Shown here piece by piece: positions 29,804 to 44,004 of a DNA stretch of 44,004 nt (its first letter is position 1; every line of letters starts with the position of its first letter). Source of the DNA: Phycisphaerae bacterium (lineage in GTDB: Bacteria > Planctomycetota > Phycisphaerae > Sedimentisphaerales > Anaerobacaceae). The stretch spans positions 1 to 44,004 of the forward strand of contig JAAYBV010000077.1 in NCBI GenBank assembly GCA_012744475.1, read 5' to 3'. A program made the translations under genes and the position numbers. Under the pieces are notes generated by a model. It had not been told where the DNA came from and ran no database searches. It saw nothing but the letters and a program-made list of their open reading frames with translations.

Positions 29804-30877
29804 CTATTCGTGCTGCTCCTCATAAGGGGCATACGCATCCTTGCCGAACTCGTCGCGCGGATGGGCGTGGTCGTAGACCTCTTTGAGCTTCCGCGTGGTC
29901 AGGTGCGTGTACACCTGCGTCGTCGAAAGCGACTGATGGCCCAGCAGTTCCTGGACGCTCCGCAGGTCCGCGCCGTTGTTGAGCATGTGCGTCGCAAAGC
30001 TGTGCCGCAGCGTGTGTGGACTGATGTTGGGATCCAGGCCCGCCATCTTCAGGTACTTGTCCATCTTACGCCGCACGCTGCGGGTGCTCAAACGCTGCCC
30101 GTGTTTGTTGACGAACAGAACCTTCGTGTCGAAGTGCGAATTGCTCTGGGCCCGCTTGTTGCGGAACTCCATGTAGTGCTGAATGGCCTGGAGCGCCGAT
30201 GAGCTGATCGGGGCAATCCGCTCCTTCTTGCCTTTCCCGCGAATGTGGATGATCTCGCCGAGGAAATCGACGTCCTCCATGTTCAGCGCGACCAGCTCAC
30301 TGACGCGGATGCCCGTGCTGTACAGCGTCTCAAGGATCGCCCGGTCCCGCGCGCCCAGCCATGTCTCCGTCGGCGGAGTCTCCAGCAGGCGCTTGATCTC
30401 TTCGTACTCGAGGAAGCGAGGGAGCTTCTTGTCCTGCTTCGGGGTGCGGACCGCCGTCAGCGGATTCGAGCTGCGCCGGTTCGTCTTGACGAGATACTTG
30501 TAGAAGCTTCGCAGCGTCGCCAGCTTCCGGGCAATCGTCGCCTTCGAGTACGCCTTGTCGTTGAGGTGGGCCAGATAGGATCGCGCCTCGTTGACATCGG
30601 CGGCCAGCAGGAGTTGGTCGACGCTCTGCTCCGTCTGCACGGCGACCGCCGTAGCGGCGCCCCCTTGATGCTGCTCCAACGAGCCGGTCTCCTCGTGGGA
30701 GGCGTCCCCGTCGCAGGTCTGCAACAGAAAATCCCCGAACTGCGCGAGGTCGGCACCATAGCACTTCGCAGTGTGTTCCGAGAACCGCTTTTCGAACTTG
30801 AGATAGTTCAGAAACTGCTCGACTATCGCGTTGCCATCTTGCATAGTCCACCTGCCCACTTCATCTATCGGCATCAT
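29804..30877 (-). CDS. Tyrosine recombinase, XerC/XerD-like
   Basis: The 357-residue protein has the full catalytic set of tyrosine recombinases: Arg in STGIRVSELVAL, Lys in IRGKGKKERI, HTLRHSFATHML (His and Arg), and LLGHQSLSTTQVYTHLT with the second His and the nucleophilic Tyr. The N-terminal SAM-like DNA-binding domain (SEHTAKCYGADLAQFGDFL) is interrupted by an insertion of about 40 residues rich in Gly, Glu and Gln (near residues 55-95) that XerC/D normally lack. The ATG at 30877 and an ATG at 30844 both have GGTG-type ribosome sites. A chromosome-dimer-resolution role is likely, but integrase use cannot be excluded. No dif-like site or element ends were found nearby. Confidence 0.9.
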   Translation of the reverse strand: MMPIDEVGRWTMQDGNAIVEQFLNYLKFEKRFSEHTAKCYGADLAQFGDFLLQTCDGDASHEETGSLEQHQGGAATAVAVQTEQSVDQLLLAADVNEARSYLAHLNDKAYSKATIARKLATLRSFYKYLVKTNRRSSNPLTAVRTPKQDKKLPRFLEYEEIKRLLETPPTETWLGARDRAILETLYSTGIRVSELVALNMEDVDFLGEIIHIRGKGKKERIAPISSSALQAIQHYMEFRNKRAQSNSHFDTKVLFVNKHGQRLSTRSVRRKMDKYLKMAGLDPNISPHTLRHSFATHMLNNGADLRSVQELLGHQSLSTTQVYTHLTTRKLKEVYDHAHPRDEFGKDAYAPYEEQHE

Positions 30878-30945
30878 CGATCACCTACTTGTTTCCGTCC
30901 TAATTCCTGCGAACACGTTCTCTACACAAGAGCGTGCCGTTCGAT

Positions 30946-31185
30946 TCAATGCACTCTGGTGACATCGGAGTCATCCGCGGCGAGGAGCCCCTCGGCCCTG
31001 CCGATCAGCATCTGGCTCAATTTGAAACTGAGGACCGCCGCATCGAACCAGTCGAAACCGGTCCGATGGTCTTTCACCTGGTCGATCAAGGCGTCGAGGA
31101 GTTCGTCCTCCCGTCCCTGCTCGTACCGAAAGATGAACTTCTCGGACCCTTTGTTCAGCACCAGTTGCCGCTGCAAACGCTTCAT
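30946..31185 (-). CDS. Small soluble protein of unknown function
   Basis: This 79-residue protein begins MKRLQRQLVLNKGSEKF, and its start at 31185 has GAGGTGC 8 nt upstream. The frame is open back to 31302, but the extra 39 residues are of low-complexity, shadow-like composition. The sequence has protein-like features: an aromatic FIFRYEQGREDELLDALIDQ helix, a GFDWFDAAVLSFKLSQMLI segment, and an acidic tail. There is no signal peptide. It ends 68 nt before the recombinase start and may be transcribed with it. I do not recognise a family. Confidence 0.55.
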   Translation of the reverse strand: MKRLQRQLVLNKGSEKFIFRYEQGREDELLDALIDQVKDHRTGFDWFDAAVLSFKLSQMLIGRAEGLLAADDSDVTRVH

Positions 31186-31397
31186 ACCGAGCACCTCGTT
31201 CCGCTGCGTCTCAGCCGGATCGGACCTGACGCCGCCCGACCGCCCCTCCAAGGCCCCGACCGTTACGTCCGGTTCATCGGACCTTTCTGAGACGCCACAC
31301 ACATTTATCGGCCAATTGCCTGTCGCTCTTTACAAAAACTGCGCGTGAATATCGGGCATTCCGTATCCCGTGCCGCAGGATGAGCATTCCGACATGA

Positions 31398-31411
31398 GCG
31401 CCGAAGGGCGC
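31398..31411 (-). terminator. Weak hairpin downstream of the radical SAM gene
   Basis: GCGCC and GGCGC arms flank a 4-nt GAAG loop (31398-31411), 18 nt after the radical SAM stop. It is a stable short stem with no T-run. It is the only candidate end signal for the leuS operon. Confidence 0.35.
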
Positions 31412-31429
31412 CGGCAGGGAGCGTTTCCG

Positions 31430-32380
31430 TCAGTCCGGCCGCGTGCAGTAGTAGGTGACGCCGCCTTGGCGTTCCGAGAGGATCGCGTTCTCTGACAGCA
31501 GTTGGGTGATGTGCTTGACCGCCTCGTTACGAGTGACCCCAATCCCCGCACAGATGTCTTCGAGAGAACAAGGCCGTCGTTTCAGCATTGATAAGACGTC
31601 CGCGCATGTGCGCAACATGTGCCGGTCGGTACGGGCCTCCGGGGCGGCCCCCACCACCTCGCAGTGGCCCCCGATCTGTCGGGCGATGGCCTCCAGACGT
31701 TCGCGGGCAATCGCCTCGATTCCAGGCTCGGCAGCGGGGCGCACAGCACTGTTGAGCTGGACCCGATCCGGCCGGATGCACTCCACATGTTGCCTGATCT
31801 TCTCCACTTCATCCGGGCTGGTATTGACCCCGTCCACGAGAAAAACCTCCAGCCAGATCTGCCCATGAAATTCCTGGCGAAACTGGACCAGGCCGGAAAC
31901 CAGCTTTTCAATGCTGATATCAGGGGCCGGGCGGTTCACCCGGCGGAAGGTCTCGGCATCCGCCGCATCCAGCGACGGGATAACGAGGTCGGCCTTGGTG
32001 CATTCGGCCCGAACGTCCGGGCGGTAAAGCAAGGTGCCGTTGGTGATGATCGCCACGGGGATGCTCGTTATGTCGCGAATGCAGTCGATCAGGGAGCCCA
32101 GTTGCGAGTTCAGGGTGGGTTCGCCCGACCCCCCGATCGTGATGTAGTCTGCCTCGATGCCAGCGGCGAGCTTACTCTTAAGCTCGTCGAGCACCGCCTG
32201 CACGTCGAAAAACTTCCGGCGGACCGTGCTCTTTTCCGTGGTTCTTCCGATCTGGCAGTAGACGCAATCCAGCGTGCAGATCTTGGCAGGCACGATATCG
32301 ATGCCCAGACTGCGCCCGAGGCGGCGGGAGGGGACGGGGCCATAGATGTAGCCGACCGGATTGGAGCCTGGTTCAGTCAT
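31430..32380 (-). CDS. Radical SAM protein with a C-terminal winged-helix-like domain
   Basis: The 316-residue protein has the radical SAM [4Fe-4S] motif CTLDCVYC (Cys 35, 39, 42), preceded by YGPVPSRRLGRSLGID, the hallmark of the COG0731 Fe-S oxidoreductase family. GGSGEPTLNSQLG follows and is the SAM-binding glycine motif. The last 70 residues (CSLEDICAGIGVTRNEAVKHITQLL) form a winged-helix-type DNA- or RNA-binding domain. Family members are linked to tRNA or cofactor modification, but this subtype is not characterised. The start overlaps the kdsA stop by eight bases (ATGACTGA), so it is co-translated with kdsA, the last gene of a run starting at leuS. Confidence 0.88.
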   Translation of the reverse strand: MTEPGSNPVGYIYGPVPSRRLGRSLGIDIVPAKICTLDCVYCQIGRTTEKSTVRRKFFDVQAVLDELKSKLAAGIEADYITIGGSGEPTLNSQLGSLIDCIRDITSIPVAIITNGTLLYRPDVRAECTKADLVIPSLDAADAETFRRVNRPAPDISIEKLVSGLVQFRQEFHGQIWLEVFLVDGVNTSPDEVEKIRQHVECIRPDRVQLNSAVRPAAEPGIEAIARERLEAIARQIGGHCEVVGAAPEARTDRHMLRTCADVLSMLKRRPCSLEDICAGIGVTRNEAVKHITQLLSENAILSERQGGVTYYCTRPD

Positions 32381-33188
32381 GGAGAATCCTGTGGATGCCC
32401 GAACAGACGCGGATCAGCCCCTCCAGCCAGTCCAAAGGCAGGATGGAGGCGGCATCCGACTTGGCCTTGTCCGGCGTGGGGTGGACTTCGAGAAACAGGC
32501 CGTTGGCGCCGGCCGCCACGGCCGCTCGCGCCAGAATCGGCGCCATCTCGCGCCGGCCTCCGCTGGCGCTGCCCAATCCGCCGGGCTGCTGGGTGCTGTG
32601 TGTGGCGTCGAAGACGACGGGACAACCCAAGCGCTTCATACCCTCGATGGCGGTCATATCGTTGACCAGGCGGTTGTACCCGAAAAACGTCCCCCGCTCG
32701 GTCAGCAGGATGCGATCGTTCTTGCAGGCGCGAATCTTCTCGACCACATTGGCCATCTCATCGGGCGAGAGAAACTGGCCTTTCTTGACGTTGACGGGCT
32801 TGCCCGTCTCGGCACAGGCGCAGAGCAAATCGGTCTGGCGACACAGAAACGCCGGAACCTGCACGCAGTCCACCGCAGCGCCTACCGCCGCCGCCTGCCC
32901 GGGCTCGTGCACGTCGGTCATAACCGGCAGACCGCTCGCCGCGCGCACCTGCTCCAGAATCCGCAGGCCCTCTTCCAGTCCCGGCCCGCGAAAGCTCGAA
33001 ATGCTGCTGCGGTTGGCCTTGTCAAAGCTCGCCTTGAAGACAATCCCCACGCCGGTACGGTGCGAGATCTGCACGAGCCGCTCGGCGATTTCGAGACACC
33101 CTTCCAGACTCTCGATCACACACGGCCCGGCCATCACGAACAACGGCGCATCCAGACCGACCCGGATATTTCCAATGTCAAATTTCAT
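32373..33188 (-). CDS. kdsA: 3-deoxy-8-phosphooctulonate synthase (KDO-8-phosphate synthase)
   Basis: KdsA condenses phosphoenolpyruvate with arabinose-5-phosphate to make KDO-8-phosphate for lipopolysaccharide. The 271-residue protein starts at the ATG at 33188, with GGTGGAAG upstream; the open frame extends to 33431 without coding character. Signature segments are GPCVIES, FKASFDKANRSS, RGPGLEEGLRILEQV, TDVHE, QVPAFLCRQTDLL, VNVKKGQFLSP and DATHS. The Cys in the GPCVIES segment is consistent with a metal-dependent type, but sub-typing by eye is uncertain. Its presence argues for a lipopolysaccharide-bearing outer membrane. Confidence 0.93.
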   Translation of the reverse strand: MKFDIGNIRVGLDAPLFVMAGPCVIESLEGCLEIAERLVQISHRTGVGIVFKASFDKANRSSISSFRGPGLEEGLRILEQVRAASGLPVMTDVHEPGQAAAVGAAVDCVQVPAFLCRQTDLLCACAETGKPVNVKKGQFLSPDEMANVVEKIRACKNDRILLTERGTFFGYNRLVNDMTAIEGMKRLGCPVVFDATHSTQQPGGLGSASGGRREMAPILARAAVAAGANGLFLEVHPTPDKAKSDAASILPLDWLEGLIRVCSGIHRILHD

Positions 33189-33264
33189 CTGAGACTTCCA
33201 CCCATAGAGCTTTGCGTTCGGCCGCATGATATCCGTCGGCGCGGGGCCTGGCAAGATCATGTCC

Positions 33265-34209
33265 TCAGCGGAACGGTCTGGCAATGCGGCTGCGAATGCC
33301 CGCCGGCTTGGCGCCCGGCGGAACCATGCACTGCACCGCTCCCGGCACCACCTCGATGTGTACGGGCAGCGAGGGGCCAGGGTCGCCGTCCATCTCCGTC
33401 TTGAATCCGCCGGCCGGTGAGCTGATCGCAATGTGCCTGCCCTGCCGATAGATCACGTCGCGGCAGCTTGCGTGGCGTTTCAGCACCGTCAGCACGGAAT
33501 GCTTGACCAGATGAACGCGACCGGCGCAGCGGTAGATGCAGACGTCCAACAGGCCGTCGCCGAAATCCGCATGGCGCAGGATCTGAAGCCCAATCGCATA
33601 TCGTGAGATGTTGCCCACGAACACCATGCCCGGCCCGTCGAAGACCTCCTGCCCATCCACCACCACCGTCACCGGCTCGAACCGGTGGTTCCAGAAGGTC
33701 CGCCAAAGAGGATACACATAGTCGAATTGATTGATGTGGCCGGTGCGGTGCCGGCTGACCAGATCGACGACGTCCCCGTCGAACCCGAAACCGACGATGG
33801 AAGCGAAGCACCTGCCGTTGGCGGTGCCCACGTCGAGCGGACGCGTGACGCCGCCCTCAAACGCGCGGACGAGGGTCCCCAGACGTCCGTCGAAACCGAG
33901 TTCGTTGGCCAGGAGGTTTTCCGTGCCGCACGGAACGATCAGCAGCGGTTTGACGCTGCCCTCCAGGCCATGGGCCACCTCCCGGACCGTCCCATCGCCG
34001 CCGGCGACCACCACCAGAGCGCAGTCCGGATCGACCGCGGCGTCCGTCGCCAGTTCGCAGGCGTGCTCGAGTGACGTGGTCGTGCCCGCGCGCACCTCGT
34101 ACCGGCGGTCCGTCAGATAGCGATGGAAGCGTCGACAGGTGAACTTGCCGCTGCTGGCGCCCGACTTGGGATTGACGATGTACTGAATGTAGCCTTCGGA
34201 TGGCTTCAT
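33265..34209 (-). CDS. Diacylglycerol-kinase-like (YegS/LCB5) lipid kinase
   Basis: The 314-residue protein has the DAGK catalytic signature VVVAGGDGTVREVAHGL and the N-terminal YIVNPKSGASSGK block. The usual G-T-x-N-D-x-A segment reads PCGTENLLANELG, with Glu-Asn in place of the typical x-N-D order. The C-terminal beta-sandwich (DVGTANGRCFASIVGFGFDG, VFVGNISRYAIGLQI, DGLLDVCIYR) completes the family fold. These kinases phosphorylate diacylglycerol, sphingosine-like or undecaprenol-type lipids with ATP at the membrane face; the lipid is unknown. It starts 19 nt after the CYTH gene and precedes kdsA by 76 nt. Confidence 0.88.
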   Translation of the reverse strand: MKPSEGYIQYIVNPKSGASSGKFTCRRFHRYLTDRRYEVRAGTTTSLEHACELATDAAVDPDCALVVVAGGDGTVREVAHGLEGSVKPLLIVPCGTENLLANELGFDGRLGTLVRAFEGGVTRPLDVGTANGRCFASIVGFGFDGDVVDLVSRHRTGHINQFDYVYPLWRTFWNHRFEPVTVVVDGQEVFDGPGMVFVGNISRYAIGLQILRHADFGDGLLDVCIYRCAGRVHLVKHSVLTVLKRHASCRDVIYRQGRHIAISSPAGGFKTEMDGDPGPSLPVHIEVVPGAVQCMVPPGAKPAGIRSRIARPFR

Positions 34210-34228
34210 ACCGACCCGGACCGCTGCC

Positions 34229-34786
34229 TCACAGAAACACCTCCCTCCGCGTCGATTTCAGTCGAGACAACGCCGCGTCGATCAGAGACGCGTAGCTGTC
34301 CGTGACGTGAGGAGCATCCGTCAACCCCAGCGTCTTCTGCACACTCTGAATGACCTTCGAATCGGGACCTTCGATCTCGACGAACGTGCCGATCAGCGGC
34401 AGCGTGTCCAGAGCGATCCGACACTCCTCCCACTTCCACTCGCGGCGCCTCTTGTTGAACGCCAGGGTCCGCCGGTATCCCAGCGCCTCCAGCAGGGCCT
34501 CGGCCGCCTCGGCATCGGCGACGTCGAGGTTCACTTCTTGGCGCTTCTTGAAGTCGTCGACCTGTTTGGGACCCTTGTACGTCAGAACCAGACGTTCGGC
34601 TGTCCCCGTCGTTTCGACCCGCAGGCGAAGACACTGATCCGTCCGGGTCAGGTCCGCATCGGGAGTGTCGAAGTAGGAATCGGTCTGGACCGTCTCCGAG
34701 ACGAACGAGGCGCTCTGCGATCGCAGGCATTCCTCGACGCATTCGAACGAAGGCACCCTCAGTTTCGCTTCGATCTCCAGGTACAT
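34229..34786 (-). CDS. CYTH-domain protein (triphosphate tunnel metalloenzyme)
   Basis: The 185-residue protein has the CYTH hallmark ExExK at the N-terminus (MYLEIEAKLRVP). DSYFDTPDADL, CLRLRVET, RLVLTYKGP, RQEVNLDV, RREWKW, and the late GTFVEIEG strand follow, all lining the predicted eight-stranded tunnel. Members bind and hydrolyse triphosphates (class IV adenylate cyclase, thiamine triphosphatase, inorganic tripolyphosphatase). Which activity applies is not determinable, but with no N-terminal or C-terminal extra domain, inorganic tripolyphosphatase or cyclase activity are the main options. Gaps to leuS (18 nt) and to the lipid kinase (19 nt) make it part of one operon. Confidence 0.9.
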   Translation of the reverse strand: MYLEIEAKLRVPSFECVEECLRSQSASFVSETVQTDSYFDTPDADLTRTDQCLRLRVETTGTAERLVLTYKGPKQVDDFKKRQEVNLDVADAEAAEALLEALGYRRTLAFNKRRREWKWEECRIALDTLPLIGTFVEIEGPDSKVIQSVQKTLGLTDAPHVTDSYASLIDAALSRLKSTRREVFL

Positions 34787-34804
34787 CGCGCTCCTCGAAG
34801 GCGC

Positions 34805-37360
34805 TCAGACCACGATATTGACCAGGCGCGACTTGATGACGATGACCTTCTTCGGGGTCTTGCCCGCCAGGGCTTCGACGACGCGGTCGCAGCCGAGGGC
34901 CTGGGCCTTGATGTCCTCGTCCCCGGCCTCCGCTGGGACAACGATGCGGTCTCTGATCTTGCCGTTGACCTGAACCGCCAACTCGATCTGACTGTCTTTG
35001 ATGAGGTCCTTCTCGTACGTCGGCCAGGGTTCGTAGGCCAGGCTCTGGGCATGTCCCAGCCGCTGCCAGAGTTCCTCGGCAATGTGCGGCGCAAAGGGCG
35101 CCAGCACCAGCAGCAGCGATTCCAGCACCGACTTCGGACGTACCTCCAGTCGCCCCAGATGATTGACAAGGATCATCATCGCGCTGATGGCGGTGTTGAA
35201 GCCAAAGGACTCGATGTCGTCGCCGACCTTCTTGATGGTCTGGTGCAAGAGGCGAAGCGTCTCCTCCTCGGGCGGAACCGGGCGAACGTTCACCGAAAAC
35301 CGGCCCGTCTCTTCGTCGACGACCAGCCGCCAGGTCTTCTGGAGAAACCGGTGGACGCCCTGCACACCCTGCATGCTCCACGGCTTCATCGCCTCCAGCG
35401 GCCCCATGAACATCTCGTACAGCCGCATCGAATCGGCGCCGTAGTCCGTCACGACCTGGTCAGGGTTCACCACGTTGCCGCGCGACTTGCTCATCTTCTG
35501 CCCGTCTTCGCCCAGGATCATCCCCTGGTTGACCAGCTTCTTGAACGGCTCCTTCGTGGTGACGTAACCAAGGTCGTAGAGGAATTTGTGCCAGAAGCGC
35601 GAGTAGAGCAGGTGCAGCACCGCGTGCTCAGCGCCGCCGATATACAGATCGACCGGCATCCAGTACCTCTCTTTTGCCGGGTCCCAGCCGCGTTCGGAGT
35701 TGCGCGGATCGAGGTAGCGCAGATAATACCAGCAGCTTCCCGCCCACTGGGGCATCGTGTTCGTCTCCCGCCGGGCGGTGCTGCCGTCGGGCATGGTGAC
35801 ATCGATCCAGTCCGTCGCCTTGGCCAGAGGCGGCTCGCCCGTCCCCAGCGGCTTGTAGTCGTCCAGCTCGGGCAGGCGCAACGGCAGATCGCTCTCCGCA
35901 AGGCCCATGATTTGCCCGTCCGGCAGGTGCAGGATCGGAAACGGCTCGCCCCAGTACCGCTGCCGGCTGAACAGCCAGTCGCGCAGCTTGTAGTTGACCG
36001 CCCGTTTGCCCAGACCTCGTTCGGCCAGCCAGGCGGTGATTCTCTCTTTGAATTCCGGCGTCGGCAGTCCGTCGAACGGTCCGCTGTTGATGGCCGTGCC
36101 ATCTCCGGTGAAGCACAGCTCGCCCCGCGCGACCCGCTCGGCGTCTTCGCAGCTCGGCGGCTGCACCACCTGGATGATCGGCAGTTCGAACTTCGTAGCG
36201 AACTCGAAGTCCCGGTCGTCGTGCGCTGGCACCGCCATAATCGCGCCGGTCCCGTAGCTGATCAACACATAGTCGCTGATCCAGATCGGAATCCTCGTCT
36301 CATTCACTGGATTGACTGCATACGCCCCGGTGAAGACGCCCGTCTTGTCCTTGGCCAGATCGGTGCGGTCCAGGTCACTCTTTCGAGCGGCCGCTTCGCA
36401 GTAGGCCTTGACCGCCGCTCTTTGCCCGTCAGCGACAATCGCATCCACCAGCGGATGCTCCGGCGCCACCACCATGTAGGTCGCCCCGAAGAGCGTATCC
36501 GGCCGGGTCGTGAAGACCCAGAGGTTGTCGTCGCGTCCGTCGATGCGGAAGCAGACTTCGGCGCCGACGCTGCGCCCGATCCAGTCCACCTGGAGCTTCT
36601 TGATCGACTCGGACCAATCGACCTCCTTCAGATCGTCGAGCAGTCGCTCGGCGTATCTGGTGATGCGCAGCATCCACTGCCGCATCGGCCTGCGAATCAC
36701 AGGATGCCCCCCCCGCTCGCTGACGCCGCCGACAACTTCCTCGTTGGCCAGAACCGTCCCCAGCGCCGGACACCAGTTCACCGGCACGTCCGCCTGGTAC
36801 GCCAGCCGGCGGTCGTCGATATACCGGCGTCTCTGGTCGTCGCTGAGCCCCTCGGGAATCGGCAGTTCCTCGATCGGCCGGGCCTTCTGCTGGCCCTCAT
36901 CGAAGAAGCAGTTGAACAACTTCAGGAAGATCCACTGCGTCCAGTGGTAATACTCCGGGTCCGTCGTGGCGATTTCCCGGTCCCAGTCGTAGCTGAACCC
37001 GAGCGCCTTGGTCTGCCGCTTCATATTGGCGATGTTCTGGTTGGTGGTCTCCTCGGGGTGGGTCCCGGTCTTGATCGCGTGCTGCTCGGCGGGCAGACCG
37101 AAGGCATCCCACCCAAACGGGTGCAGGACGTTGAAGCCCTTCATCCGCTTGTAGCGAGCCACGATGTCCGTTGCGGTGTACCCCTCCGGATGGCCCACGT
37201 GCAGCCCCTGCCCGCTCGGATAGGGGAACATGTCCAAGACGTAGTATTTCGGCTTCGAGGCGTCACAGTCGACCGCCCTGAAGCTCTTGTGCTCATCCCA
37301 GTACGCCTGCCACTTGCGTTCAATCCGTCCAAAATCGTACGTGCCTTCTGTCGTACCCAT
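34805..37360 (-). CDS. leuS: Leucine-tRNA ligase
   Basis: LeuRS charges tRNA-Leu and edits errors. The 851-residue protein starts at the ATG at 37360, with AAAGG about 14 nt upstream; a TTG immediately before it is also in frame. The class I signatures are HVGH (residues 54-57, in [14 protein letters not shown]) and KMSKS (622-626, in [15 protein letters not shown]). The editing domain contains [21 protein letters not shown] and [13 protein letters not shown] long antisense open frame of 1167 codons runs opposite and is a composition shadow. leuS is the first gene of a run that continues with CYTH, lipid kinase, kdsA and radical SAM genes. Confidence 0.97.
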
Positions 37361-37472
37361 CAATCCAGCAACCTTTCTGAGACTCCAGCTCTGCCGCGTT
37401 TCGGCTTAGCCGCACACATCGCGGCCCGCCGCAGGCGCAGCCGTCCGCCCCCCCCTGCCAGCCGAACGAGGT

Positions 37473-37867: not shown

Positions 37868-37885
37868 CCGAGCCCTACTGCTCGG
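37868..37885. repeat. Hairpin straddling the lamin-tail gene stop codon
   Basis: CCGAGC (37868-37873) pairs with GCTCGG (37880-37885) around a 6-nt loop that contains the stop codon (37875-37877). It may mark the transcript end, but no T-run follows. Confidence 0.4.
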
Positions 37886-38897
37886 GCGCCTCCGCAGGGA
37901 TGATCGCAAACGCCTCGTCGCTGGTGTCGTAGACCGAGAACTGCGTCGCGCTGGACACGCGGACCAGGCATTGCTCCGAATCCACCGGCGGAACCGTCCA
38001 CTCGTAGAGACCGCTGTTGCCGAGGTTGGGCGGGAAGACCGCCATCCAACTGGCGCCTCCATCGAACGAGAACTCGATCAGGACTTGCTCGATGGCCTCG
38101 TCGCTTTCCCACTGAATCGGCGTCACGCTGCCCGCCATCAGAGACTCGCCACCGTTGGGATCGATCAGCGCAATCGATGCCGCGACCGGCTCGACCACGC
38201 GCAGGTCCGCGAGGTCCTGGGAACCCCATCGATTCGGAGAGCCGAACGTGCTGAAATCGGAGCCGTCGTCATAGTCGTTGGAGTACGGCGTAATGGTGCC
38301 ATCCGGGTCCTCTTCCAGACGGAAGATTTCGGTGTCGCCGACACCGCTGGTCGGACTGATGCCTTCCCCAGCCGGACCGAACACGATCGCCCCGGCCGCA
38401 TTGCGGATCCGCAACTGCCAGTTGCTGCTGCTGACCGGAAACGACGAGGCCTCCATGTACAAACCGTCGGCGCCGTCCTTGGCCTGTACGTTGATCCACC
38501 AGTCGCCGGCCTCGGGGTTGTAGCTGATATCACTCGGCACATCCTCGGCCACCGTGATGATCGTTCCGCTGCGAAGGTCCGACCAGATCGCGTTCTGGGT
38601 CAGGTCGAGCGTCTCATCCAGCATGCCGCCTTCGAGCAGGTCGAGGTGCCAGCCCCGCATGTCGAGATGATCCTTGATCACGACGAGTTCGAACCAGTCT
38701 CCTCCGTTGCCTTGGACACGTCCGAAGTAGCTGTCGGAGGCCCTGCCGCCGTCGAGATCGGACGCGGAGTCGCCGCCGTTGAGGAACTCAAGGCTGTCCA
38801 CCGCGTTGTACTCGTTCAGGATCACGTCCGCCCCCCAGGCGGTTGCCGACATCAGGACCAGCCCGACCACGGCTGCCGTCACTCTGCTGTAACTCAT
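37875..38897 (-). CDS. Secreted lamin-tail-like protein with a C-terminal Ig-like domain
   Basis: The 340-residue protein has a signal peptide (MSYSRVTAAVVGLVLMSATAWGA). Residues about 24-220 contain LNEYNAVDS, WFELVVIKDHLDMRGWHLDL, SGTIITVAEDVPSDIS and a GDTEIFRLEED segment, resembling lamin-tail domains (beta-sandwich) found on secreted bacterial proteins, often beside CotH kinase-like domains in planctomycetes. Residues about 240-335 look like an Ig-like domain (DPNGGESLMAGSVTPIQW, LIEFSFDGGASWMAVFP). There is no lipobox, PEP-CTERM or other anchor at the C-terminus. A GGTGG-containing ribosome site precedes the ATG at 38897. It lies 110 nt after the outer-membrane channel gene on the same strand, so it probably belongs to the same transcription unit. 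Confidence 0.8.
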   Translation of the reverse strand: MSYSRVTAAVVGLVLMSATAWGADVILNEYNAVDSLEFLNGGDSASDLDGGRASDSYFGRVQGNGGDWFELVVIKDHLDMRGWHLDLLEGGMLDETLDLTQNAIWSDLRSGTIITVAEDVPSDISYNPEAGDWWINVQAKDGADGLYMEASSFPVSSSNWQLRIRNAAGAIVFGPAGEGISPTSGVGDTEIFRLEEDPDGTITPYSNDYDDGSDFSTFGSPNRWGSQDLADLRVVEPVAASIALIDPNGGESLMAGSVTPIQWESDEAIEQVLIEFSFDGGASWMAVFPPNLGNSGLYEWTVPPVDSEQCLVRVSSATQFSVYDTSDEAFAIIPAEAPEQ

Positions 38898-39007
38898 GAT
38901 TCCACCCTTTCCTTGTCCTCAATTCGTAAATCAACACGGGGCGTGTCGCCCTGTGCGACCGCCGTTGCGATATCCCTTTTGTCTGGTCGCGCGTTCCGGC
39001 CGCGCGG

Positions 39008-40618
39008 TCACTCGTTCACAGGTAGTCCGGCTTGCGTCAGGGCAACCGCTCCCGGCCGCAGTTCCCACATCCCATCCGGCCGCACCTCCAGGACTTCCGT
39101 ATCCCGGTAGAAGTTCAGCGTGGCGTTTGCATAATCCGTCAGCGCGTCGGCCGCCTCGTTCCTGGCGTCGTACAGGTGCTCCAGCGCCGTGAGCACCCGC
39201 CGGCTGCTCACCCGCGCGTACGAAAGTAATTCAAACGTGCTCTCCACGCGCTGCTCCGCCAGACGCACCCCTTCGGACAGGACCTGATACCGCTGCGCCG
39301 TCTCCAGCAGCTTGCGATGGGCCTCTCGGACCTCCATGCGGATGGTGTCGGCCGTCTGGTCATATTCCCGCAACCGCTGATTCAGCGTGACCAGGGCCCT
39401 GGCGTATGAATCCTGCTCGGCCACGCGGTCCAGGGGCAGATCGAGCGTCGCGCCTGCCGCCACATTCCGCTCACCGTCCGTGCGCGTCTCGGCGCTGGCG
39501 AAGATGTTCAGGCCGGGACGCAGAGCGTCCTTGGCGACAAAGACCGCCCGCTGGGCGTCGATCACCGCATCGGCGCTGTTGGTCAAATCGAGACGTTGGA
39601 TCAGCGCCGTCTCGACGGCTTCATCCAACGGGATGTCGGGATAGGGAATCCCCTGGGTCTTCCAGCTCTCGAAGACCTGGACGTCCAGATCGAACTCCAT
39701 GGTGGGGGGCACCCCCATCGTGATCTTCAGGAGGTCGAGCCACCGCTCATATTCCTTTTGCGCCAGAATCTGGGCATCGCGCGCCCGCAGAATCTCCTGA
39801 CGAACCTGGGCCAGTTCCTCATCCGACAGGCGTCCGGCGGCGACCAACGGCTCCACGCGCGTTGCCAACACCTGGAGGGCCTCGACGTGGCGGGCCGCGT
39901 TCTGCGCCATGTCCCGCAGTTCCAGGGCCTCGTGATACAGGGTGACGACGGAGACGATGGTCAGCTTTCGGAAACGGCACACGGTGCGGATCTGGTACAG
40001 GGCGTTTCGCTCCGCCTGGGTCAACGGCTCTCGGACGACGCGCGGATCGCTGCCCCGCAGCAGAGGCTGAACCACACTGGCGCCAAACGTGCCCGTCCAG
40101 CCATGCTGGCCCAGCCCGATGAGGATATCCGCCCATCGCGCGCCGACCGTGGTCCCGACCGCCGCCCCGGTGGCCAGAAGGCGGTTGAAGCCGAGATTCG
40201 GCTCCACAACCACACGCTCGTTCGTCCCGTCATTCGAGTACAACGCCGTCCCGCCCCCGAACAACTGCGTCTCGTAGGAATGACGGATCAAACGCATGTC
40301 GAGCGTCATCGTGTACAGCAGCTCTTTCTGGAGGTGATAGTCACGATTGCGTGCCAGGGCGATGGTCGCCGCCTGGGGAATCGTGAGAATTCCCGTCTCC
40401 GAGACGCTCTTCTCGATCCGCTCGACCTGGTCGATGTCGATATCGTCGGGCGAGGGCGTCGCGCCCGTGATGCGGTAGTTCGCCTGCGGCCCGAATTCGG
40501 GCTCCCATCGGCTGTCCACAAAGCCGTAGACTTTCTCGTCGGCATCGTGTTTGTAGGTCTTCGGACCGCAACCGACCAGGAAAACAAGACATGCGGCGCA
40601 CAAGATGCTTCGTGCCAT
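39008..40618 (-). CDS. TolC-like outer membrane efflux lipoprotein
   Basis: The protein has 536 residues from the ATG at 40618. A GTG at 40648 with GGA 6 nt upstream is an equally good start, giving 10 more residues. A short hydrophobic stretch ends in LVFLVGC, a lipobox, so it is predicted to be a lipid-anchored outer-membrane factor. The body shows the long periodic helices of the TolC family (VSVVTLYHEALELRDMAQNA, LVTLNQRLREYDQTADTIRM, LYDARNEAADALTDYANATL) and beta-strand stretches (LGFNRLLATGAAVGTTVGAR). Homologues form trimeric outer-membrane tunnels for efflux or secretion. It follows the membrane fusion gene by 94 nt, with no ATPase or pump gene between. Confidence 0.87.
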   Translation of the reverse strand: MARSILCAACLVFLVGCGPKTYKHDADEKVYGFVDSRWEPEFGPQANYRITGATPSPDDIDIDQVERIEKSVSETGILTIPQAATIALARNRDYHLQKELLYTMTLDMRLIRHSYETQLFGGGTALYSNDGTNERVVVEPNLGFNRLLATGAAVGTTVGARWADILIGLGQHGWTGTFGASVVQPLLRGSDPRVVREPLTQAERNALYQIRTVCRFRKLTIVSVVTLYHEALELRDMAQNAARHVEALQVLATRVEPLVAAGRLSDEELAQVRQEILRARDAQILAQKEYERWLDLLKITMGVPPTMEFDLDVQVFESWKTQGIPYPDIPLDEAVETALIQRLDLTNSADAVIDAQRAVFVAKDALRPGLNIFASAETRTDGERNVAAGATLDLPLDRVAEQDSYARALVTLNQRLREYDQTADTIRMEVREAHRKLLETAQRYQVLSEGVRLAEQRVESTFELLSYARVSSRRVLTALEHLYDARNEAADALTDYANATLNFYRDTEVLEVRPDGMWELRPGAVALTQAGLPVNE

Positions 40619-40712
40619 CCAGTATCGGTTGTGCGATGCGATTGTCACTGTTCCATCCGCCTTTACCCTGTCGACGGCGCCCGCCGGCGCCGACAAGAGG
40701 ACTGCACGGGCG

Positions 40713-41942
40713 TTACAGCCCGCTGATGCCGACGACCTCGCCCGAAACCACAGACAGGCCCGCAGGAACGCCGATCAGCACGGGCCGTCCCCACTGGGGG
40801 ACGTTCGGATTGACCCACAGACGCTGCGGCATCAACTCAATGACCGGGCCGATGCGCAGGACTTGTGACTCTGCGATCTGCGCGGGCTCTCTGGCCTTGA
40901 CCAATTTGACCGTCATCTGGTCTTTCAGAAGCCGCAGTTGGGCCTCATTGACATAGGCAACGATCTCGGTCGGTTCCAACTCTGCCACGGCCAGAATGGG
41001 ATCGCCGGCCGGAATCACCTCTCCGGCACGCCGCACCGTCTGCTCGCCGGGCCTCTGCAGGAGAGCATCGTTGGCCTGGCCGTGAACGGCGATCACCACG
41101 CCGTCAATCGGAGACGTGAGCTCCACATTGCGGCGCGTTCCCAGAGCCGTCAATTGGGCCAGCAAGCCTTTCATCAGTTCCTCTTGAACCGTGATTTCCT
41201 TGCGAATCGCCTCCAGGGCGTGATCGACGCTCGGCTCCGGCAGACCCTGCTGGCTGAACAGGTCACGCCGTTCTTCGGCCTTTCGCAGGTCTTCCCGCGC
41301 CTGCTCCAGTAGCTGCTCGTTTTCCCGTACCTTGCTCTCGAGGGCCTTAAACTGAATCCTCGCCTTTTCCACCTCGTAGGGGGCAATCGCCTCCTTGCTC
41401 AGCAGATCCTCCAGGATCTTCACCTCTACGCCCAGGTCCTCCAGGGTTCCTCGGTCGAATGCGGTGGTCGCCTGCAACTCGAGAATGCGCACTCGTGTGT
41501 TCTCGACGTCAGCCGCGAATCTCCGTTCGTTGTCGGCTCGGTCGATCTTCAGGCCCGCCATGTCGGTTTCCAACTGATCCTGTGTGGGAATCAGCAGCGA
41601 TGCCAGGCGCTCCGCTTCGGCAGCCGCAACGGCCAACTGCGCTCTCAAGTCCGCTTCGAGCGTCTGCTCGTTGTCCAGAAGCGTATCGACGATCGCCACC
41701 GTCTGGCCCGCCTGGACCGGCTCGAACAGATCGACGGAGATGTTGCGGATGCGCCCCGTGCAGTTCATGGCGATCTGGCGGATTTGGCCCTGGGCGATCC
41801 CGACGACTTGGAAGCGTTCGGCCCGCTGATAGAACAGCCAGACCACCGCGCCGACCGCCGTCAGCCACACGGTGGCCGGCAGAACGTGCCGCAGCAGATA
41901 GCGTTTGCGGAGATGATCGTTTCCAGAGCGTTTCGTCTTCAT
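40713..41942 (-). CDS. HlyD-type membrane fusion (periplasmic adaptor) protein
   Basis: The 409-residue protein has a short basic cytosolic N-terminus, one membrane helix (residues about 20-38), then a barrel-sandwich half-motif (GQIRQIAMNCTGRIRNISVDLFEPVQAGQTVAIV). A long coiled coil of about residues 90-275 (DNEQTLEADLRAQLAVAAAE, VRENEQLLEQAREDLRKAEE) and the second half-motif (RNVELTSPIDGVVIAVHG) follow. Such proteins bridge an inner-membrane transporter to a TolC-type channel. It starts 7 nt after the DUF4956 stop. No ABC, RND or MFS partner lies in the window, which is unusual for HlyD-type adaptors. Confidence 0.9.
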   Translation of the reverse strand: MKTKRSGNDHLRKRYLLRHVLPATVWLTAVGAVVWLFYQRAERFQVVGIAQGQIRQIAMNCTGRIRNISVDLFEPVQAGQTVAIVDTLLDNEQTLEADLRAQLAVAAAEAERLASLLIPTQDQLETDMAGLKIDRADNERRFAADVENTRVRILELQATTAFDRGTLEDLGVEVKILEDLLSKEAIAPYEVEKARIQFKALESKVRENEQLLEQAREDLRKAEERRDLFSQQGLPEPSVDHALEAIRKEITVQEELMKGLLAQLTALGTRRNVELTSPIDGVVIAVHGQANDALLQRPGEQTVRRAGEVIPAGDPILAVAELEPTEIVAYVNEAQLRLLKDQMTVKLVKAREPAQIAESQVLRIGPVIELMPQRLWVNPNVPQWGRPVLIGVPAGLSVVSGEVVGISGL

Positions 41943-41949
41943 GTCGCGG

Positions 41950-42642
41950 CTAAACCTCGAGCAGTTGCTCCTGCATGGTCAGACTGATGTTTTCGATTCC
42001 CTCGACGCGCTCGAGTTCCGAGATCAATTCCTCATTCCGGGCGGCATTGCGAATCATCAATTGATACGCGTAGTCGGCCGGTCCACCAAAGCCGGAGTCC
42101 TGTACAGAGATCAGCGTATAGTTCCCACAGAAGCGCCGCAGGACCGTCGTGATCGGATGGTCCGGCCCGATCGATCCGCGCAGGCTGAACCGCAGGAATC
42201 CGTTGTGCGGCTCATGGGCGCCAAAGTCCGCGAAGTACAGATAGAGGATGATCAGGCACAGCACAACCGTCCCGATGATGGCCGTCGCGTACCGGTGCGA
42301 GCCGGCCGCCATGCCGACCACCAGCGAACAGAAGATGAACGAGATGTCGCGCGTGTCCTTCAGGACGTTGCGAAAACGGATGATCGCCAGCGCGCCCATC
42401 AGGCCGACCGCCGTGATGATGTTGTTGCCGATCACCGCCATGACCATGGCGACCACGACCGTGATCACGATCAGCGATTGCACGTACGAACGGGAGTACG
42501 ACAATCCGCTGTGTGTGGCATAGTAGACCCACGCGATCACCTGCCCGAGCACAAACGCCAGCAGCAGGCTCAGCAGGACGCTCTGCGGGTTGAACGGACC
42601 ACCCATCGGCGTCTCTTCCATCAGTTGCCACAGTCTATCCAT
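41950..42642 (-). CDS. DUF4956 membrane protein
   Basis: The 230-residue protein has about four membrane helices in residues 20-135 (VLLSLLLAFVLGQVIAWVYY, LIVITVVVAMVMAVIGNNII, then SFIFCSLVVGMAAG and AIIGTVVLCLIILYLYF). The conserved DUF4956 block NIITAVGLMGALAIIRFRN-VLKDTRDI lies between the second and third. The C-terminal 90 residues form a soluble ACT-like alpha/beta region. DUF4956 genes are commonly found next to VTC-type polyphosphate polymerase genes, as here, where the start overlaps the VTC stop by eight bases (ATGGATAG). Its biochemical role is unknown; a channel or anchor for the polymerase is a reasonable inference. Confidence 0.9.
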   Translation of the reverse strand: MDRLWQLMEETPMGGPFNPQSVLLSLLLAFVLGQVIAWVYYATHSGLSYSRSYVQSLIVITVVVAMVMAVIGNNIITAVGLMGALAIIRFRNVLKDTRDISFIFCSLVVGMAAGSHRYATAIIGTVVLCLIILYLYFADFGAHEPHNGFLRFSLRGSIGPDHPITTVLRRFCGNYTLISVQDSGFGGPADYAYQLMIRNAARNEELISELERVEGIENISLTMQEQLLEV

Positions 42643-43492
42643 GCCACCCGTTCCTCACCACAGGCGCGCAAAATCCCAGCGTGCAGGCCTGTTCGATCGA
42701 CGTCGCATACTTCGACACCGATCGGGCGTCGAGCTCGAACAGCTCCGCCAGGCGGATCAGCCACGCGGGAAACGTTCCCGTGAACTTGATTTCTAGTATT
42801 GCATGCCCTTCGGTCAAGGCGTTCCGCTGCCAGCCGGAACCCCCGAGGCGGACCAGCGGCGCGTCCGTAACCTTGAAGCACAGCTCCCGGTCAAACGTCA
42901 CTCGCACCCGATTCTCGGAGGTGCTCTCAAAGGCCTGCCTCATGTAGCGGATCAGCACGCGAGGCCCGGCGTTGATGGTCATGGTGTAGAGCTGAAACTG
43001 GTTCAACGCCGTTTCGTCCGTCGTATACCCGCGGGGCGGCAGCCGCCGTCCCACCAACAGAGGCTTGACGTCCTCATCCATGACCCGGGCCCGGCTCTTC
43101 ATGATGACCCGGTTGATCCGCCTCTTGATCTCGAAGAAGCGGGGATACTCCGGCTCATCCGTATAGCTTCGAATCCGAAGCTTGAAACGGTTCTTCTGGC
43201 CGGTCAGCGTTTCCCGGCACAACTTCATATCCGGCGAATCACAATACAGGCTGACAATCGGGTACATGCCGCCGCGTTGAAGCTTGGAGTACCGGTCGTA
43301 CTCCAGAAACTGCCGCACATAGCGTTCGATGGCCGCCGCTTTCGCGTCACTGATGTGATATTTCAACTCGTAGCGGCACGCCAGCATGCGATCGCCGCTC
43401 TTCTTGGCTGTCGGCGCCGGACCGGCTCCGCTTTTGCCCGTCGACGGAAGAACGCAGTCACCCGTCTTTCCCGCTGTCTGGCCTGTCGTCAT
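42635..43492 (-). CDS. VTC-domain polyphosphate polymerase
   Basis: The 285-residue protein starts at the ATG at 43492; the frame opens at 43606, and an ATG at 43384 would give the bare domain. The VTC catalytic tunnel motifs are RYELKYHISDAKAAAIERYV, IVSLYCDSPDM, RFKLRIRSY, FFEIKRRINRVIMKSRARV, RVTFDRELCF and ILEIKFTGTFPAWL. The basic residues on alternating strands (K-R-I-R, E-I-K, E-I-K) line the polyphosphate tunnel of the yeast VTC4 fold. VTC4-type enzymes polymerise the gamma-phosphate of ATP into polyphosphate. The enzyme has no membrane segment and would act at the cytosolic face with DUF4956, whose gene it overlaps. The N-terminal 35 residues are low-complexity. Confidence 0.9.
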   Translation of the reverse strand: MTTGQTAGKTGDCVLPSTGKSGAGPAPTAKKSGDRMLACRYELKYHISDAKAAAIERYVRQFLEYDRYSKLQRGGMYPIVSLYCDSPDMKLCRETLTGQKNRFKLRIRSYTDEPEYPRFFEIKRRINRVIMKSRARVMDEDVKPLLVGRRLPPRGYTTDETALNQFQLYTMTINAGPRVLIRYMRQAFESTSENRVRVTFDRELCFKVTDAPLVRLGGSGWQRNALTEGHAILEIKFTGTFPAWLIRLAELFELDARSVSKYATSIEQACTLGFCAPVVRNGWHG

Positions 43493-43716
43493 GCTAATGT
43501 TTCTTACCAATCCAATGGGCGTTGCTGCGCTCGGGAGTCCCCACTCCGGCTGCCTGTATTCCAAGCCGGCGCAGTTTCTCCTACCACAAGTAACGAGAAA
43601 CCCCACGTACCCCCGGCAAGATATCCTCCACTAACACCGCCATTTCGAGGGCTGGATACACTAAGCCCAGCCCAGGTTCTTTTCCTATTTTACCAAAAGT
43701 CGGCCCTCTGAGTCAA
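43493..43716 (-). promoter_or_regulatory. Promoter and roughly 188-nt leader of the VTC operon
   Basis: Reading leftwards, TTGACT (43716-43711), an 18-nt spacer and TAAAAT (43692-43687) form a good sigma70-type promoter. The leader to the ATG at 43492 contains three short hairpins: GTTTCTC/GAGAAAC (43574-43580, 43595-43601), CCGGCT/AGCCGG (43546-43551, 43564-43569) and GGAGT/ACTCC (43534-43538, 43543-43547). The last two share two bases and so exclude each other. I do not recognise a riboswitch class. Confidence 0.6.
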
Positions 43717-44004
43717 GGGACTATTAGAGTGGCGTTAGCGGACCTCCCAAACGCCGAAACCGCAGTGGTGCCGGTACCGAACAGACCCTTTTCGGCCCCA
43801 GCGGCGGCACTATGTCAGGGGCAGCAGCCTGGACGATGGTTGCACGTCTGCTATTCGCCTGCGCCTCCGGGAGATGGGGTTGCGGCGTGCCAGTGGGCGG
43901 GGTCGTTGCCGTACGAGGCCGGAACGGTCCGGTGCAGCGATGGGCCTCGCCCGTCCGCCTCGACCGGCCAGGGATCGATCCCCTCGCCAAAAGCCTCTGG
44001 ATGC
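43717..44004. other. Window end with no supportable gene
   Basis: No frame in this 288-nt stretch has coding character beyond short GC-rich open frames; an 88-codon minus-strand frame is Arg/Pro-rich and lacks a ribosome site. A 6-bp inverted repeat GGCGTT/AACGCC lies at 43731-43736 and 43750-43755. The sequence after 43860 could belong to a gene beyond the window edge. Confidence 0.5.

Follow-up and report, generated by a model that had tools for sequence, protein, structure and literature searches.

The window considered here, a stretch of 44,004 nucleotides (nt) of Phycisphaerae bacterium DNA, makes up an entire contig (JAAYBV010000077.1; G000:C57) of a 5.75-Mb, 99.62% complete genome and carries a minus-strand operon for a VTC-domain protein, a DUF4956 membrane protein, a HlyD-type adaptor and a TolC-type channel. 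By a slight balance of probability, we judge that this operon encodes a polymerase-driven line that exports polyphosphate across the cell envelope, running from VTC through DUF4956 and the adaptor to an outer-membrane pore. The first-pass annotation of this DNA had proposed that VTC and DUF4956 take the place of a pump and that the adaptor and channel carry the polymer, or a product dependent on it, to the surface. The position of the adaptor behind VTC-DUF4956, the near-single origin of this linkage and the use of two kinds of pore favour that proposal, whereas loci outside the order count against a strict four-gene unit.

The open reading frame list and a Pfam scan placed all five annotated genes in one direction and with the spacings originally claimed. 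VTC and DUF4956 overlap by 8 nt (42635-42642), 7 nt (41943-41949) separate DUF4956 from the HlyD gene, a further 94 nt lead to the ATG of the channel gene at 40618, and 110 nt divide the channel gene from the fifth gene. This secreted fifth product, a 340-amino-acid (aa) protein, is present as described, although its lamin-tail likeness is one noted by eye only. The features of the locus are as follows.

42635..43492, minus strand: VTC-domain protein, putative polyphosphate polymerase (PF09359, E 2.9e-35; the open frame extends to a GTG at 43606)
41950..42642, minus strand: DUF4956 membrane protein, proposed inner-membrane passage (PF16316, E 1.2e-13)
40713..41942, minus strand: HlyD/EmrA-type periplasmic adaptor (HlyD_3, PF13437, E 2.4e-08)
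39008..40618, minus strand: TolC-type outer-membrane channel (OMF) with a lipoprotein-like signal (OEP, PF02321, E 2.5e-23, two stretches)
37875..38897, minus strand: optional fifth gene, encoding a secreted protein of 340 aa that resembles a lamin tail by eye (Pfam: nothing at E <= 0.1)
43851..44003, minus strand: giant CotH/lamin-tail protein, C-terminal 50 codons and stop, the gene running off the contig (58-71% identity)

The annotation had called for a survey of related genomes, and the order VTC-DUF4956-HlyD proved to be conserved. Across 148 genomes of the order Sedimentisphaerales, VTC gave 108 matches and DUF4956 107, each in 90 genomes, and HlyD of the window type gave 95 matches in 88 genomes; 84 of these 95 (82 of the 88 genomes) stood in the same order and on the same strand as VTC and DUF4956. 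Ten of the remaining 11 HlyD matches were partial, several of them at contig ends, and genome G090 held the sole full-length HlyD without VTC. A scan of named genomes with DUF4956 patterns of the HlyD type returned 138 relatives, of which the best 80, all Planctomycetota, Phycisphaerae, Sedimentisphaerales or similar by title, included 78 loci with the complete order, the other two being cut off by a contig end immediately behind DUF4956. Among 294 genomes of the phylum, VTC matched in 78, and the HlyD profile (E 1e-20) matched in 22, 16 of which lie outside the order in ten families; within 1.5-kb flanks, DUF4956 accompanied 23 of 25 HlyD loci and VTC 22 of 25. DUF4956 was located just upstream of 108 of 111 distinct HlyDs, two of the other three being at a contig end. 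These counts confirm that the neighbourhood is not due to chance. Genes at the fetched loci were called with a purpose-written script rather than a published caller.

To count near relatives once, loci sharing any identical 25-residue stretch of VTC were chain-linked into 157 clusters. In 65 of 72 clusters, the distance from the VTC domain to the start of HlyD was 697-763 nt. A combined VTC and DUF4956 tree, a quick tree with long branches, was built from 125 of the 157 clusters (70 with HlyD, 55 without), rows being dropped for a short VTC or DUF4956 match, a missing DUF4956 or too little flank. All 70 HlyD-linked rows, together with one HlyD-less row (L275), formed a single clade of 71 (SH-aLRT 99), and HlyD linkage required 2 changes on the tree compared with 41 in shuffles. 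The exceptional row, which has the gene order DUF4956-VTC-CotH and a long branch, may be misplaced within the HlyD clade. Together, these results support a single or near-single origin of the HlyD link, followed by its retention. In HlyD-less loci (L106, L111, L115, L275) the gene orders vary, with DUF4956-CotH-VTC and DUF4956-VTC-CotH as examples, whereas that of the HlyD type is fixed. Natural VTC/DUF4956/HlyD fusions were also considered and none was found among the loci inspected, the large open frames being stop-to-stop frames that are not shown to be fusions.

The outer-membrane position downstream of HlyD is occupied in more than one way. Of 40 fetched loci from the order, 33 had a TolC-type channel directly after HlyD, and the channel of the window has a signal ending in LVGC, which appears lipoprotein-like by eye; the 340-aa gene came next after the channel gene in 14 of the 40 loci, the window counted. 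Among the 111 distinct HlyDs, the partner was TolC-type in 62, a secretin (PF00263) in nine and neither in 22, while 18 had too little flank. Four secretin genes followed HlyD in the same direction at a distance of 110-456 nt (L160, L162, L166, L169), four adjoined HlyD convergently (L079, L095, L147, L172), and one was upstream on the same strand (L097). On a HlyD tree of 93 of the 111 proteins, again a quick tree with long branches from which the 18 with too little flank were dropped, the secretin label required five changes, at least four of them forced by the starred branches. The slot is therefore interchangeable between a TolC-type channel and a secretin, a feature that is new here, and two kinds of pore in the next slot are as expected of an export line. 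At L097 (G090:C304, 8318-11693), a full-length HlyD of the clade stands 23 nt behind the same-strand secretin with neither VTC nor DUF4956; this arrangement reflects either a split of the operon or independent movement of the pair.

The adaptor itself is predicted to have an EmrA-like fold. Its model (pLDDT 85.8) comprises an N-terminal membrane helix (residues 9-41), a hairpin arm of about 90 residues with helices at 90-182, 188-231 and 239-271, and lipoyl and barrel parts, and EmrA (4tko, E 2.1e-17) was its best Foldseek match.

No conserved transporter family accompanies this adaptor in the neighbourhoods scanned. The 121 scanned neighbour genes (of 213 listed) fell into 116 Pfam families, the 25 commonest of which included none, and the Pfam scan of window genes revealed no ABC, RND or MFS pump. 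The annotated lack of a pump gene thus holds on the visible side of the window; upstream, the contig ends. Up to five genes away from HlyD, a motif search across 40 loci yielded a single ABC-like gene, and a hidden pump in the operon was rejected, there being no conserved pump family nearby. The annotation had also envisaged that HlyD in relatives might usually lie beside a pump of its own, and the adaptor instead sits behind VTC-DUF4956.

The VTC-type protein probably makes polyphosphate, judging from its conserved residues. A profile of 35 relatives matched yeast Vtc4 (3g3q) at E 2e-10, and Vtc4 residues K200, R264, R266, K281, K294, R361 and R373 corresponded to K82, R144, R146, K161, K170, R223 and R235 (323-aa frame numbering), all seven being invariant across the 35 sequences. 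Yeast Vtc4 is impaired by changes to R264, R266 and E426, according to the accessible portion of PMC9911596; E426 lies beyond the HMMER alignment and is hence unmapped. The Pfam scan of the 323-aa frame returned VTC only, with no SPX or Vtc-type membrane domain. The gene probably starts at the ATG at 43492 rather than at 43606, because the homologous ATG is where the called frame of a same-genus relative (L063) begins and because the domain, in the longer frame, does not begin before residue 78. The genome of the window contains one VTC match and one PPK1 match, so VTC need not serve storage.

We know of no function for DUF4956. Its AlphaFold2 model (pLDDT 76.9, pTM 0.54) has a helical membrane part and a C-terminal ACT-like domain; a profile search against PDB sequences gave no match up to E 1, and Foldseek matched the ACT-like part alone, with nothing at E <= 0.001. 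Residues L81, G83, L85, R89, F90 and R91 are common to HlyD-linked and HlyD-less types, whereas position 92 holds N in HlyD-linked proteins (RFRN) and T in 91% of the HlyD-less type (RFRT), a signature that may help to sort the two in other genomes. We infer a cytosolic position for the conserved RFR loop, which VTC would feed there. One genome with a full operon carries an additional DUF4956 gene at L101 (G127:C1:6020598-6020870), for which no adjoining VTC match is recorded.

We propose the following model. Cytosolic VTC, given its conserved catalytic residues, would make polyphosphate from ATP, and DUF4956 would act as the inner-membrane passage that receives the chain directly from VTC, in the manner of the yeast Vtc1/3/4 channel. 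The adaptor, predicted to be EmrA-like and anchored in the inner membrane, would bridge the periplasm, and the outer-membrane pore, whose gene is swapped for a secretin in some lineages, would let the chain out. No ABC, RND or MFS pump would be needed because ATP-driven polymerisation would push the chain. Once outside, the polymer would form a surface coat or be used by the CotH/lamin-tail surface proteins whose genes lie next to the operon and elsewhere in the genomes.

Several observations weigh against this model. We infer its polyphosphate cargo, DUF4956 pore, complex and energy source. DUF4956 shows no known transporter fold, its model being moderate, and five large non-CotH proteins near HlyD were not identified by Pfam. 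R-L-S is the TolC-docking motif at the adaptor hairpin tip, and here the L is kept in 31 of 36 sequences, while the R and S positions are variable; the available part of PMC8277102 contained neither R-L-S nor polyphosphate. Five of the nine secretins lie outside the same-strand downstream slot, four convergent and one upstream. The 22 HlyDs with neither pore include all 14 judgeable ones from outside the order; beside those operons, no TolC-type channel or secretin occupies the slot, and large unrelated or CotH proteins often come after HlyD instead. The exit pore must therefore be encoded elsewhere or be absent there, and these loci argue against a universal four-gene unit. Finally, many VTC-DUF4956 pairs occur without HlyD, and the pair therefore has a function without it.

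The most serious alternative, which we regard as unlikely but by no means negligible, overlaps with the export model. It holds that VTC-DUF4956 delivers polyphosphate or its phosphate energy across the inner membrane to secreted CotH kinases and their lamin-tail surface proteins, as their donor or partner, the adaptor and outer-membrane pore extending delivery to the surface in one lineage; the polymer would then be a reagent and not a product. This alternative draws on a link that the earlier annotation had missed, namely that of VTC-DUF4956 with CotH. CotH was nearby at 36 of 38 HlyD-less VTC-DUF4956 loci with enough flank, compared with 20 of 49 HlyD-linked loci, and of 39 loci fetched from the order, 18 had it within 9 kb. 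Of the 148 genomes of the order, 86 have both VTC and CotH, four VTC only, 15 CotH only and 43 neither (Fisher p 7e-20, uncorrected for ancestry). Furthermore, the genome of the window contains 25 CotH matches, against its single VTC, in 23 frames, most of them longer than 1000 aa (e.g. on contigs C116, C46, C44, C103 and C60), and these frames make up an extensive family of kinase-like surface proteins. A gene group of cotH, poly-phosphate polymerase and DUF4956, likewise missed by the annotation, is also described beside Gram-positive pel clusters in the accessible part of PMC7112168.

The window itself holds only the C-terminal 50 codons of such a protein. These last 153 nt of the contig, stop included, are 58-71% identical (best six matches) to the C-termini of large proteins flanking VTC in relatives, and in two same-genus relatives the giant protein is 1500 aa long and directly upstream of VTC, the one at L062 containing, according to Pfam, a CotH domain (E 2.2e-23) and LTD in four stretches. 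On contig C5 of the window's genome, a counterpart is 66% identical to the L063 protein up to residue 1043, where it is cut by the contig end; this piece would belong upstream of the window contig. CotH/LTD giants on G000:C5:1-3161 and G000:C86:1-3092 are both broken at homologous residue 1043 by contig ends, a shared break suggesting that repeats of both giants broke the assembly, with C5 the likelier upstream piece.

Several points count against delivery to CotH as the purpose of the operon. CotH of Bacillus uses ATP and is not known to use polyphosphate, and 15 of 101 CotH genomes have no VTC. Moreover, genome size and common ancestry may lie behind the association, and of these size alone was stratified: among genomes below 3.2 Mb (sizes partly read by hand), 29 had both, three VTC only, 11 CotH only and 35 neither. 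Bacillus CotH is described as a Ser/Thr kinase in the available excerpt of PMC7821199.

A second alternative, which we consider doubtful and less probable than delivery to CotH, is that the VTC-like enzyme makes a product other than polyphosphate, such as a phosphate-linked polymer, which the line exports. The bacterial homologues of VTC are only distantly related to Vtc4, show no SPX domain in the Pfam scan and are known here by homology alone, and the Gram-positive gene group adjoins Pel exopolysaccharide genes (PMC7112168, accessible part). Conversely, the invariance of all seven mapped catalytic-tunnel residues speaks against another product, as does the absence of glycosyltransferase or sugar-phosphate genes from the 25 commonest families of the 121 neighbour genes. 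It is more improbable still that the adaptor and channel serve a conventional pump encoded elsewhere, VTC-DUF4956 merely regulating it or sharing the operon. Such adaptor and channel families normally serve ABC, RND or MFS pumps, as the accessible portion of PMC8277102 states, and the closest relative of the adaptor, EmrA, belongs to an MFS pump; yet the HlyD-linked rows form one clade on the VTC and DUF4956 tree, the spacing is fixed, 108 of 111 adaptors lie directly behind DUF4956, and it is the outer-membrane partner that varies while VTC-DUF4956 stays constant. Chance adjacency has a vanishingly small probability and was rejected on the 84 of 95 and 78 of the best 80 loci given above, the order being conserved across a taxonomic order and ten further families of the phylum, and no supporting point was found.

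Downstream of the operon, at 29804-37363 of the window, lie leuS, CYTH, diacylglycerol-kinase-like, DAHP/KDO8P-synthase-like and radical SAM genes. This block has the same orientation as the operon in many relatives (L062, L067, L068, L076, L080) and the opposite orientation at L085.

To our knowledge, how bacteria place polyphosphate on or outside the cell is unexplained, and the bacteria concerned here are planctomycetes known mostly from environmental DNA. The polyphosphate export model offers a testable answer on surface polyphosphate and on DUF4956 function, namely a pump-less line that would take its energy from polymerisation, and the operon gives access to the question of why VTC, DUF4956 and CotH are so widely grouped. 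If the model is true, surface polyphosphate could feed or organise many CotH kinases. The pairing of one adaptor family with a TolC-type channel or a secretin according to lineage would surprise workers on both.

The annotation had noted that yeast VTC couples polyphosphate synthesis to translocation, which the accessible part of PMC9911596 states, and the principle of polymerase-coupled export is already known. Like the eukaryotic VTC complex (Vtc4 with a Vtc1/Vtc3 channel), the present system has conserved polymerase residues, an adjoining membrane partner and, as a proposed principle, synthesis-coupled translocation. It differs in that no SPX or Vtc1-type membrane part was found here, DUF4956 is a separate protein, and the target would be the exterior, reached through two membranes. 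The Gram-positive pel accessory genes likewise place a VTC-type polymerase beside DUF4956 with CotH near, whereas the accessible part of PMC7112168 mentions no adaptor or outer-membrane pore, and no pel gene was present among the 25 commonest neighbour families here; the HlyD-less VTC-DUF4956-CotH loci of Planctomycetota are closer to this group than the HlyD type is. That group was also the nearest published case: as the annotation had supposed, no description of a VTC-DUF4956-HlyD-pore export system was found in the open-licence literature, and a candidate paper (PMC10434189) was set aside, as DUF4956 and HlyD are unrelated list entries there. Nothing pertinent emerged on the surface polyphosphate of Neisseria either.

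Tripartite efflux and type 1 secretion systems (AcrAB-, EmrAB-, MacAB- and HlyBD-TolC) share the EmrA-like adaptor and TolC-type channel, but their outer-membrane part can here be a secretin, and the operon is not such a pump because the defining ABC, RND or MFS transporter was looked for and not found. The alginate synthase-secretion system (Alg8, Alg44, AlgK, AlgE) has a glycosyltransferase polymerase, a PilZ adaptor and the AlgE porin, whereas here the polymerase gene is VTC, no glycosyltransferase occurs among the 25 commonest neighbour families, and the exit is an OMF or a secretin. Should the proposed cargo and mechanism be confirmed, the operon would deserve a class of its own; that it represents an undescribed class of secretion machine, with VTC polymerisation as the engine, a DUF4956 pore, one adaptor, either of two unrelated exits and polyphosphate at the surface, we hold tentatively, at somewhat below an even chance. 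On the best reading, the operon would work like a yeast VTC joined to an alginate-type bridge (Alg44; PMC3815931, accessible part), while being a member of neither system.

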